A DNA stretch of 64,000 bases from Arbacia lixula (lineage: Eukaryota; Echinodermata; Echinoidea; Arbacioida; Arbaciidae): assembly GCA_963669155.1 (NCBI GenBank), contig OZ022577.1, positions 30,250,053 through 30,314,052 of the forward strand. The letters are read 5' to 3'. The position numbers and the translations under genes are program-made. This document shows positions 20,985 through 32,518 of the stretch, in pieces; positions within the stretch are counted from its first letter, which is position 1; every line of letters begins with the position of its first letter. The notes beneath the pieces are model-generated. The model made no database searches. It was not told the origin of the DNA and saw only the letters and a program-made list of their open reading frames with translations.

Positions 20985-22933
20985 ATGGTAAACAAATAAT
21001 CAACGTTGGTGAAAATAATGGGATGAACTATCACTTCCGAGGCGATCTGGATGTAGCTATCTTTCCGAAGCGCAGCTGAGGAAAGATAGCGTATACATTC
21101 AGATCGCCGAGGAAGTGATAGTTCGTCTCATTGCCTGAAACCAAAAGTTGATTATTTGATTTATATTCCACATCTGAAACCAACTATCTATACCAAAAAT
21201 GACAATTTGAGGTACAAAAGTAATGAGTACTTCTCTACCTAACCCCGAGCCGCTGCCATGGGGAACACGCGTTAGGATGCGCGTTAATTAGGACGCGCAT
21301 TATGACGCGCGTTTAATTAGGACGCGCATTATGACGCGTGTTTGGACGCGTTAGTGGGAGCTGATAGTCCGAGTGTAACGCACTTTTATTTCGCGCGTGT
21401 AAGCAAATAATCAGCGTTGGTGAGGGTGATGGGACGAACTATCACTTCCGAGGCGATCTGGATGTAGCTATCTTTCCGAAGCGCAGCTGAGGAAAGATAG
21501 CGTATACATTCAGATCACCGAGGAAGTGATAGCTCGTCTCATTGCTTGAAACCAAAAGTTGATTATTTGCTTTATATTCCACATCTGAAACCATGCAACT
21601 ATCTATACCAAAAATGACAATTTGACGTAAAAAGGTAATGTTTACTTATCTCCATAACCCCCAGCCGCTGCCATGGGGAACACGCGTTAGGACGCGCGTT
21701 AATTAGGACGCGCATTATGACGCGCGTTTAATTAGGACGCGCATTATGACGCGCATTAGGATGCGCGTTAGGACGCGCGTTAGGTCGCGTTAAATGTCAA
21801 GTGATAGTCCGAGTGTAACGCACTTTTATTTCGCGCGTACTCAAAATATTAATCACGCATTAGGACTGTGAGGAGTGGAGAGATCAGCGAAACCAAAAAG
21901 TACTATCACCTAGAGTGTAACGAACTTTTATTCTCGGTGATCTGATAGGAAAAACTACGCCTCATCACGTGATCAACTCTTGACCAATCATATAGCAACA
22001 TTCTTAGTATGTGGAATATAATAAGCAAATAATCAACGTCGGTGAAGGTAATGGGACGAACTATCACTTCCGAGGCGATCTGGATGTAGCTATCTTTCCG
22101 AAGCTTTTAGCTGAGGAAAGATAGAGTATACATTCAGGTCGCGGAGGAAGTGATAGTTCGTCTCATTGCCTGAAACCAAAAGTTGATTATTTGCTTTATA
22201 TTCCACATCTGATACCAACAATCTATAAAACAAATGACAATTTAACGTACGAAAGCGTTCGTGTCGGTGCGGCTACATATTCACGCGACGCTCCGAAACC
22301 CGGAAGCAAATTGACTTTGTGCACGTTGCTATATAGACTCTACAAATTCCAACGAACACTATGACATAGTGACGCTAATTTGTAAGATTTTGACGGAAAA
22401 GCAAGAAGTAATCGAAATTCTCTTACCTGTGCGGTATCGGTGAGAACATAGATCCTCCGAGAATACTCTTCATAATTCTAATAAATTACAGGAAAGTGAA
22501 ATTCTACGTCAATTTTGGTACGAGGTGGTAGAGAATTGCACACTTGCTTTGGTGAAATACTGTGTGGGGGAAATGGAAGGCTTGCACTGCTTTGTACGTA
22601 CGCCCGCGGCGCAGCGCGCTATAACCAAAAATTTTAATTTCCGCGCGCGCACCGCGGTGTCGTCTGCGCCGATAGTCCGAGCTACACACTTTTATTTCGC
22701 GCGTACTCAAAATATTGATCACGCGTTAGGACTGTGAGGAGTGAAGAGATCAGCGAAACCAAAAAGTACTATCACCTAGAGTGTAACGAACTTTCCTTCT
22801 CAAAAAAGTACTATCACCTACAGTGTAACGAACTTTTCTTCTCAGGTGATCAGATGGGAAAAACTACGCTTCATCACGTCATCAACTCTTGACCAATCAT
22901 ATAGCAACATTCTTAGTATGTGGAATATAATAC
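20985..22933. repeat. Complex foldback array, CpG-rich in places
   Basis: Three copies of a 165-bp hairpin (20994-21158, 21404-21570, 22026-22193), each with GAACTATCACTTCCGAGGCG at the left pairing with a GAGGAAGTGATAG... arm at the right and AAATAATCA / TTGATTATTT at the ends. Units 1 and 2 are followed by ATTCCACATCTGAAACC and a GACGCGCATTATGACGCGC array. A second module, ATCAGCGAAACCAAAAAGTA to TATGTGGAATATAAT, occurs at about 21880-22022 and 22744-22933. No coding sequence is recognised; probably nested or tandem non-autonomous DNA transposons. Confidence 0.75.
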
Positions 22934-28271: not shown

Positions 28272-29631
28272 AGGTCTTCAATGATGTATGTACTTAATTG
28301 CGCACGAAGGACTTTCAGACACATTATGACAAAGCAAAGTAGTCCATAGCCTATAGATATCTGCATAACTAGTTACTTGTGATATAGACCACAGCTTGAT
28401 CCATTTCTAGACTACTAGTTGGTTTTAAACCAATCGTTTCGCACATAAGTGGTGTAGCAAATAGAACAGAATTAGGACACAATTGAACATTTTTATTTTA
28501 TTGAACGTACCATTTAACTTGAACACGTGCAATTAGGACAGATGGAGCTGTGGCCACCGATTCAAATGTTTTTCTTCTTCGCTGCTACTCAGGGACGATT
28601 AAGTAATGAGGACATTGTTTCGAGAAAGTTCTGCCAAGGCTGGTACACACCGCCCGGTCGGCTGACAGCCGGGCACATTGCACAACCTCAAGGTACATAT
28701 ACCTCGAATTACTTTTCATGTTGGACAACTCCTACTCACCCTCCTAGCCAAATTATCACATGTGCTTATCGTACAAAAATAACTGACTCATGCCAGCTGA
28801 AACCATGCAGAGGGAATGAGATATGCTACCAGTCGTTCATAGAGGATAATTTTGTTTGTGGATGTGCCCTGGGTTATTAAGGGGAAGGATGTCAACTTCA
28901 ATGGCGCGTTGGAATGTTTTTTGCGGTCTCGGGTCTGCGCGTTTACAACATGACAGACTTCGCAGAATCTCGCGAGAGCGGCCTAAGCCGCGATGACTAT
29001 TTTCTGCGTAATCAAGCCTACATGGTGTATGATCGTGAGGATGGCTTAATTTACACGGTTAAAAATGGGGAGCTTTATTCAGGGAAGTTAGAAGGAACGT
29101 TTTCAAAAAAAATCGAGAAGTGACTTATTTCTACAAGAACATGGGCGGCAAGGGAGGGGGACTTGCGATAGATTACAACTCCCGAATGCTGTACGTGAGC
29201 CAGCCTAATATAGGGCACATCGATGGCTACCCGCTGCCTGGTCATGACGTTGGTCGAGGAGATGTCACACTCAGTATTATAAGTGACGGTGCATGTGATA
29301 TCCAAATATCCAGTAGACTCAGACTGCTGTATTGGACGGATTTTGTCGGCATTAAGCGAGGAAACATCGACAACTTCGACGGCATCGAAAGTATCATTAC
29401 CTTCAGAAAATCGACACTTTTCCGACATACAAACCGTATGGTGCTGGATGATGTTAGTGAGGACTTGATATGGACTGAACCCCTTTCTTCTCAAAGAAAC
29501 GCGATCTTCAGAGCCAGTTTGAATGGCTCATCTACACGCATGCTGTGGGAGAGTACTCGTTGGGACAGCTTCGATATGGTTGCATACGCTGGATGGTTGG
29601 TGGTCTTTGACTCATTGCGCGCTGAAGCGTG

Positions 29632-29637
29632 GTGTAT
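29632..29637. repeat. 6-bp target-site duplication (left), GTGTAT
   Basis: Abuts the left end of the foldback element and is repeated exactly at 31136-31141. Removing the element and one copy joins the reading frame. Confidence 0.8.
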
Positions 29638-29718
29638 TACGGAAGCTTAAACGTGCAGCGCGAAGGCGAGTTGTTTAACTCGCCAAGTTGCCTTGTTTCG
29701 GCAAAAAAGGCGAGAAGG

Positions 29719-30267
29719 CGACTTGTACAAACTCGCCAAGGCGCCCTTTTTAAGACGAGATGACGAGAAGGCGACTTGTACAAACTCGCCAAGGCGCCTT
29801 GTCTAAGACGAGAAGGCGAGATGGTGACTTGTACAAACTCGCCAAGGCGCCTTGTCTAAGACGAGAAGGCAAGATGGTGACTTATACAAACTCACCTAAG
29901 CGCCTTGTCTAAGACGAGAAGGCGAGAAGGCGACTTATAAAAACGAGCCTAGGCGCCTTGTCTGATACGAGAAGGCGAGAAGGTGACTTGTACAAACTCG
30001 CCTAGGCGCCTTGTCTAAGACGAGAAAGCGAGAAGGCGACTTATACAAACTTGCCAAGGCGCCTTGTCTGAGGCGAGAAGGCGAGAAGGTGACTTGTACA
30101 AACTCGCCTAGGCGCCTTGTCTAAGACGAGAATACAAGATGGTGACTTATACAAACTCGCCTAGGCGCCTTGTCTAAGACGAGAAGACGAGAAGGCGACT
30201 TGTATAAACTCACCTAAGCGCCTTGTCTAAGACGAGAAGGCGAGAAGGCGACTTATAAAAACGAGCC
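29719..30267. repeat. Left arm: 11 tandem 53-bp units
   Basis: CGACTTGTAC or a close variant recurs at 29719, 29772, 29825, 29878, 29931, 29984, 30037, 30090, 30143, 30196 and 30249, i.e. every 53 bp without drift. Confidence 0.92.
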
Positions 30268-30462
30268 TATATATGAAGTTTGAAGTTTGAAGTTTAAAGT
30301 TTATTTATTATTTCTGACGACCCCTTTCGAGGTATGAGAAATACATAGTAACTACCTATACATGTAGACTACCTATATCTCTAGACCATGTACGTAGAGT
30401 ACCTACAGATGAGATCGAGCGCGCGTGCGCAAGTCTAGATCTCGGCCGGCCATGGCCATATA

Positions 30463-31075
30463 CGCAAGTCGCCTTCTCGCCTTCTCTTCTTAAACAAAGC
30501 GCCTTGGTAAGTTTGTACAAGTCGCTTTCTCGCCTTCTCGCCTTAAACAAGGCGCCTTGGCGAGTTTGTACAAGTCGCCTTCTCGCCTTCTCGTCTTAAA
30601 CAAGGCGCTTTGGCGACTTTGTACAAGTCGCCTTCTCGCCTTCTCGTCTTAAACAAGGCGCTTTGGCGAGTTTGTACAAGTCGCCTTCTCGCCTTCTCGT
30701 CTGAAACAAGGCGCCTTGGCGAGTTTGTACAAGTCGCCTAGACGCCTTCTCATCAAAGACAAAGCGCCTAGGCGAGTTTGTACAAGTCGCCTTATTACCT
30801 TCTCGTCTAAAACAAGGCGCCTTGGCGAGTTTGTACAAGTCGCCTTCTCGCCTTCTCGTCTTAAACAAGGCGCCTTGGCGAGTTTGTACAAGTCGCCTAG
30901 ACGCCTTCTCATCAAAGACAAAGCGCCTAGGCGAGTTTGTACAAGTCGCCTTCTCGTCTTCTCGTCTTAAACAAGGCGTCTTGGCGAGTTTGTACAAGTC
31001 GCCTTCTCGTCTTCTCGTCTTAAACAAGGCGTCTTGGCGAGTTTGTACAAGTCGCCTTCTCGCCTTTTTTGCCGA
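30463..31075. repeat. Right arm: 11 tandem 53-bp units, inverted
   Basis: GTACAAGTCG recurs at 30515 and every 53 bp to 31045, with a degenerate extra unit at the inner edge (about 30463). Long minus-strand open frames here are translations of the array. Confidence 0.92.
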
Positions 31076-31229
31076 AACAAGGCGCCTTGGCGAGTTGAAC
31101 AACTCGCCTTCGCGCTGCACGTTTAAGCTTCCGTAGTGTATGCATCTCAAGGCAGGTAACTTCTCCTGGTCAAAGCTGGGTGATGTAAGACAGGACCATG
31201 CGGAACCGGATGTACTTGTCGTAATTTGA

Positions 31230-32220
31230 TCTCCTAGTATTTCACTTGGTGGTTGATATTTATACATTCGAGCACGGAAACCCCTGGCATGCTGGAGGGT
31301 AATTTTGATTGCATAGTCAGGTAGAACTATTAAATGTAAACGATTTAAATATTTTTTTTTTTATGTACAACGATAATGCTTGTTAATAGCTAACAGGTGG
31401 AAGAAATGGAAATATCAATAAAAAGACTAAGGTGCAAGAACTAAACTGCTATGTGTACCCTGATGAACGGAAGTAAGACATAGATATCAAAATCGGTTTT
31501 GAGGAAGAGGATAGAGAGTTTCTTAAAGAAAGATGATGAGGAATTCCTGGACTCATAGAGTAACCTATGAAGATGTTTATCAAAGTGCCAACGTGACATA
31601 GAAGCTAATATGTGTGCATAGAATTTTGGGGGTATATTTTTCGTTAGCATGGTTACGGTGGATTGGACAAGTTTTCGTTAAAGGGTAACATATACAAGAA
31701 AAGAAGAAGAGAAATGAGGAGGATTACTTGATTTAGCAGCCTGACCGAATGGTTGATCAGGGCTGTTTACCATGACGTGGAACGGATGCGAAGAGCTCAA
31801 GTCAGAGCGTTGTGGCATCCCATGATAGCCTGTATCACAGAATATGGCACATAGATAAATAGAGGATAGATTTAATCATTCATTTTTTTCGCAGAAAATC
31901 ATTACCATGACAACTTTGCAGATATTTTTACATGCCCAATGTATACCAAAAGAAACAGTGCAGGTGTCAATTCTGCCAATTCTAATATGAGTCTGAATCC
32001 CGTTAAATTTTGTCGGTCAAAAAACATGTTCACTTACTTTACAAATTCTTTATAACTGTTGATTTCATAAGAGCTCGGGTATTTCTTAATTATTCCATGT
32101 CTTTTAATTTTTTTGTTCCCTTCATAATTGCGTTTTCCTTTAAAAAAAATAATACATTGTCGATCCCTATTATACATATTATGTAATTACGCTTTAAACA
32201 GGCAATACGGTCACTTTATT
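31230..32220. other. Non-coding flank of the broken propeller gene
   Basis: No continuation of the EGF/YWTD frame and no other gene seen. Confidence 0.4.
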
Positions 32221-32341
32221 TACAAATCACATACCAAATGGAAATGGAAATACGGTCACTTTGTTGCTTTTCCTCTGAGTGTAACCGTTCGTTTTGATAT
32301 GCATCATCACCATAACATTTCCATTTGGTATGTGATTTGTA
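32221..32341. repeat. 121-bp foldback repeat
   Basis: TACAAATCACATACCAAATG plus GAAAT at the left pairs with ATTTCCATTTGGTATGTGAT plus TTGTA at the right, about 25 bp perfect or nearly so. Loop non-coding, with a GTCACTTT repeat. Confidence 0.8.
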
Positions 32342-32518
32342 TATAATAAAACGAGTATTGGTTTAAATCATTGTGACAAAAAACATGATTATCGCTAGCT
32401 GACCCATTATAGGGCGAGATTGGATCAATAAGCTGCGATTGTCATTGTCATTGTACAAGTATGATGACGCCAACATTGCAAGGATACTTTCATTCCCGCT
32501 AAATTTGCTACAGATGAT

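Follow-up and report, generated by a model that had tools for sequence, protein, structure and literature searches.

A foldback transposon with 53-bp repeat arms in Arbacia lixula, very probably moved by an IS3EU-type transposase

The element and the interrupted open reading frame

The window, i.e. the whole stretch of 64,000 nucleotides of A. lixula DNA analysed here, carries a 1,498-bp element at positions 29638–31135 that reads TACGGAAGCT...AGCTTCCGTA. The outer sequence at its two termini is TACGGAAGCTTAAACGTGCAGCGC...GCGCTGCACGTTTAAGCTTCCGTA. A target site duplication, GTGTAT, directly abuts the element on the left (29632–29637) and on the right (31136–31141), and the ends given in the first-pass annotation are exact to the base. 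The inverted ends noted there are also borne out: the left arm (29638–30262, plus strand) and the right arm (30511–31135, minus strand) are 625 nt each and 88% complementary. The left arm starts with the terminal TACGGAAGCTTAAACGTGCAGCGCGAAGG, after which a tandem array of 53-bp units runs over 29707–30269. The right arm includes part of the 53-bp array at 30465–31115 and ends with CCTTCGCGCTGCACGTTTAAGCTTCCGTA; the two arms show 10.6 and 12.3 tandem copies, respectively. Compared in 53-base steps, arm-versus-arm agreement is 0.94, 0.98, 0.92 and 0.91 near the ends and 0.74–0.89 inside. The single strand of the element folds into one long hairpin with a predicted −662 kcal/mol, a value given without a shuffle control at such a length. 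As described in the first-pass annotation, the frame of a gene-family member contains a transposon of foldback shape with a 6-bp duplication.

The arms enclose a central loop of 248 nt (30263–30510). The loop carries an approximately 82-bp piece of a high-copy dispersed repeat (30272–30353) with a (TGAAGTT)n tail, found in at least 38 other genomic places at 95–99% identity (40 of 273 candidates scored). This piece resembles a retroposon 3′ tail. It sits between possible CCTATA repeats. The adjacent loop segment, 30357–30464, shows 99% identity to the loop side of a half copy at C8:24294470.

The interrupted open reading frame is a gene-family fragment that runs on the plus strand from 29063 to 29637 on the 5′ side of the element and from 31142 to 31229 on the 3′ side, where it begins HLKAGNFSWSKLGD... 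and ends with a TGA at 31227–31229. When the flanks are joined at one GTGTAT, the translation reads AWC|MHLKAGNFSW in a stop-to-stop frame of 220 open codons that starts at 29063. A search of the same genome with the 191-codon left part gives 41 matches, its own place counted; the best 15 of the other matches are 36–51% identical to it and have 399–433 open codons. A paralog at C10:2842000–2842500 keeps the same register through the insertion point (AYAGWLVRFDTDLFDAWYMNV..KLGD.. compared with AYAGWLVVFDSLRAEAWC|MHL..KLGD..), and this colinearity provides independent support for the reconstructed empty site. The frame of this paralog also ends shortly past the insertion point.

Removal of the element had been said to restore an uninterrupted frame. 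This holds locally, for the 220 codons, but not further upstream, where there is an in-frame TAA (28878–28880, plus strand) and the frame shifts around a run of eight A residues (29105–29112, plus strand); the latter change may be a sequencing error. As the frame is also broken upstream, what is restored is 220 codons and not a whole gene. The proposed identity as a YWTD propeller is weakly supported, the Pfam Ldl_recept_b match of the fragment having an E-value of 0.031, below the cut-off. The host copy in the window is a decayed or decaying member of its gene family.

Distribution, ends and duplications of the family

A search of the A. lixula assembly itself (607 Mb, 590 contigs) yields at least 136 matches to the element, each arm being counted on both strands. 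The 29-bp terminus is found at 42 places (20 forward, 22 reverse), of which 40 are exact and two have 1–2 mismatches; the reversed control pattern of this terminus has no occurrence in the same genome. The 42 ends form 18 end pairs and six orphans (C1:35265048, C2:26610151, C7:20949722, C8:24295397, C11:13710180 and C63:95). Other copies agree with the ends and duplication length proposed for the window copy, a perfect 6-bp duplication being present at 16 of the 18 end pairs. For the C12:19824063/19829933 pair only 4 bp (TGTA) are common next to the ends, and the C2:24966677/24970894 pair shows no duplication.

Identical flanking 6-mers are found in 19 of 49 same-contig combinations of left and right ends within 60 kb, compared with 4 of 1541 combinations of ends from different contigs in a control that used 81 ends of all types; the duplications are thus beyond chance. 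Twenty duplications can be read (these 19 and CTGGAC, from the second family described below), and in this small sample T and A are favoured at the two central positions. The 53-bp tandem arrays look like satellite DNA, and the arms could be imagined as a satellite array or an assembly artefact with a coincidental duplication; but a fixed terminus recurs at 18 dispersed end pairs, of which 16 show 6-bp duplications, and the probability of this reading is negligible.

All 15 complete single-locus copies that were compared, 14 with the terminus of the window copy and one with another, carry 53-bp arrays in both arms. The number of recognised units per strand varies from 4 to 16 over these copies. 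The family therefore shows the anatomy of foldback elements, long inverted arms of tandem repeats around a variable middle.

Spacing of the repeat units and history of the copies

Between recognised units of this family, 305 of 321 spacings are exactly 53 bp. There are 363 units, 134 of them distinct, with a mean of 6.2 substitutions each from the consensus over 53 positions. In 21 comparisons, the common middles of the copies display 64 gaps and 214 substitutions, a change shared by several copies being counted each time; as the detection threshold favours intact units, the contrast between unit spacing and gaps in the middles is suggestive only. Arm identity is higher within elements than between them in the first 100 bp (0.929 versus 0.870; ungapped, 17 elements), and further in is 0.815 versus 0.786 and then 0.686 versus 0.683. 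As the excess fades inward, no claim is made for gene conversion between the two arms of an element.

A middle domain of approximately 890 bp is common to seven copies. The middles of four of these, on four contigs (C16, C3b, C5 and C6), are 99.1–99.6% identical with 4–7 substitutions per pair, which points to recent movement, with copy ages taken as relative only, from the divergence of the middle domain. A young amplified subfamily is present, made up of copies that lack the transposase gene described below. The total length of the copies with 99% identical middles ranges from 1893 to 2105 bp, and near-identity of the middles together with this range indicates a fast change in arm length. 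One further copy, C3a (L027, C3:16419588–16421775), has a third type of terminus, AAAAGTGCCACCT (CCACCT), and a middle approximately 97% identical to the middles of copies that carry the terminus of the window copy. The combination of a different terminus with the same middle suggests an exchange of arms between families.

Long copies and their transposase

Two long copies have the same ends. The first, C7:3082548–3091295, is 8,748 bp in length with the duplication ACAACG and contains, between the ends, a stop-free 468-codon transposase frame. The second, C10:21906058–21928482, is 22,425 bp with the duplication GGAAGA; its transposase gene is split over frames and is 99% identical over residues 152–468. 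The interiors of the two copies are colinear arm to arm, with 98.4% identity over 4808 bp and 98.7% over 1340 and 848 bp. Much of the 22.4 kb is absent from C7, and this extra sequence includes an element of the second family with its own 6-bp duplication and reverse-transcriptase frames, one of them 964 codons.

The transposase yields a Pfam match to rva_4 (E = 7.4e-32, above the cut-off) and a lesser one to rve (1.1e-5, below it). Among NCBIfam models the best are IS3 (E = 5.9e-7) and IS481 (E = 2.2e-6), both below the cut-off. D213, D272 and E313 are invariant in an alignment of three sequences and form the putative catalytic triad. A sequence search of the PDB with the transposase gave no matches. 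The nearest longer relative outside the family is at C9:15346823 (L068:3818–5116), with 432 open codons and 60% identity. No matching end pair is found within 9 kb of this relative, with one lone partial end at L068:7430, and it is either an element that has lost its ends or a domesticated gene. More distant relatives, 35% identical over approximately 170 aa, lie at C4:25611506, C21:13528288, C41:81811, C14:440544 and C10:6566063; their equal or near-equal scores suggest that they probably belong to another amplified family.

A 6-bp duplication is also found in Polinton elements (PMC10045372), which carry an integrase, and one copy here is as long as 22.4 kb, so a Polinton/Maverick derivative has to be weighed. 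However, much of that length is the extra sequence absent from C7, and the C7 interior (L046) holds six frames of 100 or more codons, of which the transposase alone has a Pfam match above the cut-off. No DNA polymerase B or packaging gene appears among these frames, the size limit being such that shorter exons could be missed. The enzyme also fits rva_4 far better than rve, and a Polinton origin is very unlikely.

The window copy is not a simple internal deletion of a long copy. In a search of 75 loci, its loop segment 30263–30464 has no match in the long copies and matches only the C8 half copy (two overlapping loci, 108 bp, 99%) and 27 bp of a C19 copy (L028). The shared middle of approximately 890 bp likewise has no match to the long-copy interiors. 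Thus copies with this middle are not simple internal deletions of the long ones either.

A second family with related ends

A second family has the ends TACGGAAGCTTAGAAGTGCCCCCA. Its sequence TACGGAAGCTTANAAGTGCCCCCAGAAGAC, at up to 2 mismatches, gives 197 ends in the same genome (97 and 100 per strand). One copy, C1:26076062–26079001, shows the duplication CTGGAC and holds a 210-codon frame in which a fragment of a transposase has 57% identity to that of the first family. The arms of the second family are likewise built of 53-bp units. The units of the two families are identical at 36 of 53 positions in register, compared with at most 26 of 53 in 500 shuffles with all rotations and both strands, and are homologous.

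In the second family, 68 of 96 spacings are 53 bp and 19 of 96 are 107 bp (53 + 54); strict 53-bp phasing is contradicted by this 54-bp class. At a stricter unit threshold, all 51 spacings under 80 bp are 53. A 10-bp palindrome is found at the same place in the units of both families (AAGGCGCCTT and AAGTCGACTT, respectively). The dyad symmetry does not serve as proof of a dimer site, covariation in the 134 distinct units being weak, and it stays a lead.

Elements of the second family are also nested in the 53-bp arms of the first (L015/L018/L033/L043; e.g. C17:9622897–9624690 and C10:21906760–21909918). Two of the nested copies display the duplications TAGACG and GATAAG. Five nested elements lie 271–279 bp from the outer end of the host element; their like positions may reflect shared ancestry or a preference for the arrays.

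A transposase match lies inside only 2 of the 18 end pairs of the first family, those of C7 and C10, among the 20 matches listed. The 16 pairs left without one would suit a passenger transposase, i.e. one that belongs to a separate element inserted into foldback copies whose own mobility depends on another enzyme, and the C10 copy shows that foreign insertions into the family do occur. However, the two long copies are colinear over the interior, and of 18 candidates for nested inverted ends around it, the 15 listed all fall in the 53-bp arrays, so that no separate end pair encloses the gene among them. The ends and the duplication length suit this class of enzyme. In addition, the second family, with its related ends, holds a diverged relative of the enzyme, which is independent support for a link between enzyme and ends. 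A passenger origin of the transposase is very unlikely.

Relation to known systems

In complete IS3EU families the termini are TA..TA and the duplication is usually one of 6 bp (PMC10045372), and a set of fungal IS3EU elements displays TAYGG..CCRTA with 6 bp (PMC12730594). The TACGG..CCGTA ends of the present family fit the latter pattern, 6-bp duplications occur at 16 of 18 pairs, and the DDE transposase is related to prokaryotic IS3/IS481 by family models, with NCBIfam scores below the cut-off; the likeness is to IS3EU together with GingerRoot. IS3EU membership is a probable assignment from termini, duplication length and family models, and the published tree in PMC10045372 does not separate IS3EU from IS481EU. 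The present family differs from IS3EU in its long arms of 53-bp arrays, which are not described in the available portions of the IS3EU accounts (PMC10045372, PMC12730594), and in its many end pairs lacking a transposase match among the matches listed.

Styx, which is related to IS3EU and comes from a fungus pathogenic on wheat, is approximately 7.9–8.2 kb with four coding sequences; a new insertion of it derived from a parental copy whose integrase frame was non-functional (PMC10853768). It shares the IS3EU-type transposase and the 6-bp duplications, but foldback arms are not mentioned for it in the available part of that report (PMC10853768).

Most foldback elements seem to belong to Mutator, and the P class is also named (PMC4079207). 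On anatomy, the present element could be a Mutator-like (MULE) foldback: Tetris and the Mutator foldbacks are likewise non-autonomous and modular, with tandem repeats in long inverted ends (PMC4079207). But their duplications are 8–10 bp and Tetris is without a known enzyme (PMC4079207), whereas here the 16 perfect duplications are 6 bp and an enzyme gene lies between the ends; this enzyme matches rva_4/IS3, with no Mutator model among the Pfam and NCBIfam hits, and a Mutator assignment is extremely unlikely. Galileo, a P superfamily foldback-like element of Drosophila, also carries tandem repeats inside long inverted ends, and additional binding sites for its transposase lie in these repeats (PMC3688188). 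Its transposase is of another class; no THAP or P-element model is found among the Pfam hits of the enzyme described here.

Proposed mobilization and origin of the arms

The finding of the first-pass annotation is real and its interpretation sound; what is added here is the probable enzyme and its class. The window element is very probably a non-autonomous foldback transposon that depends for its movement on an IS3EU-type DDE transposase supplied in trans by longer members of the same family. The transposase made by the long copies would recognise the fixed terminus TACGGAAGCTTAAACGTGCAGCGC, and the 53-bp repeats are probably extra binding sites for it, as reported for Galileo. The enzyme would pair two ends and insert them with a 6-bp stagger, giving the duplication. 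Interiors would be lost or replaced, with ends and repeat arms retained, and the arms gain and lose whole 53-bp units, possibly by slippage or unequal exchange. The gene-less copies would then be moved in trans by the long-copy enzyme.

The 53-bp period is near five turns of DNA and recurs in the sister family. Tentatively, and with the balance somewhat against it, the foldback anatomy may have had an origin in the IS3EU lineage separate from those in the Mutator and P lineages, and the reading of phased repeats by the enzyme may be what maintains it. If this is true, multimers of a bacterial-type DDE transposase would use the arms as landing strips.

No publication linking foldback anatomy with IS3EU was found in the literature searched, the one paper with both terms having foldback in a reference title only; Repbase may hold such an entry. 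With this assignment, foldback elements would have one more transposase class besides Mutator and P, and hairpin-shaped transposons of this kind would be tied to a group with bacterial-type relatives. Tetris was found without an enzyme (PMC4079207). Here the ends, duplication, candidate enzyme, gene-less derivatives and a sister family occur together in one genome, which makes it directly testable why such arms evolve repeatedly and what the repeats do.

Other repeats in the window

Two other repeat features are present in the window. A 31-nt hairpin (TTATTTACAAATCACATACCAAATGGAAATG) at 32216–32346 shows 97% complementarity with a 69-nt loop and is possibly a small MITE. Positions 21268–21343 and 21683–21789 display two arrays of a 28–29-bp unit (CGCATTATGACGCGCGTTTAATTAGGACG) situated approximately 340 bp apart.
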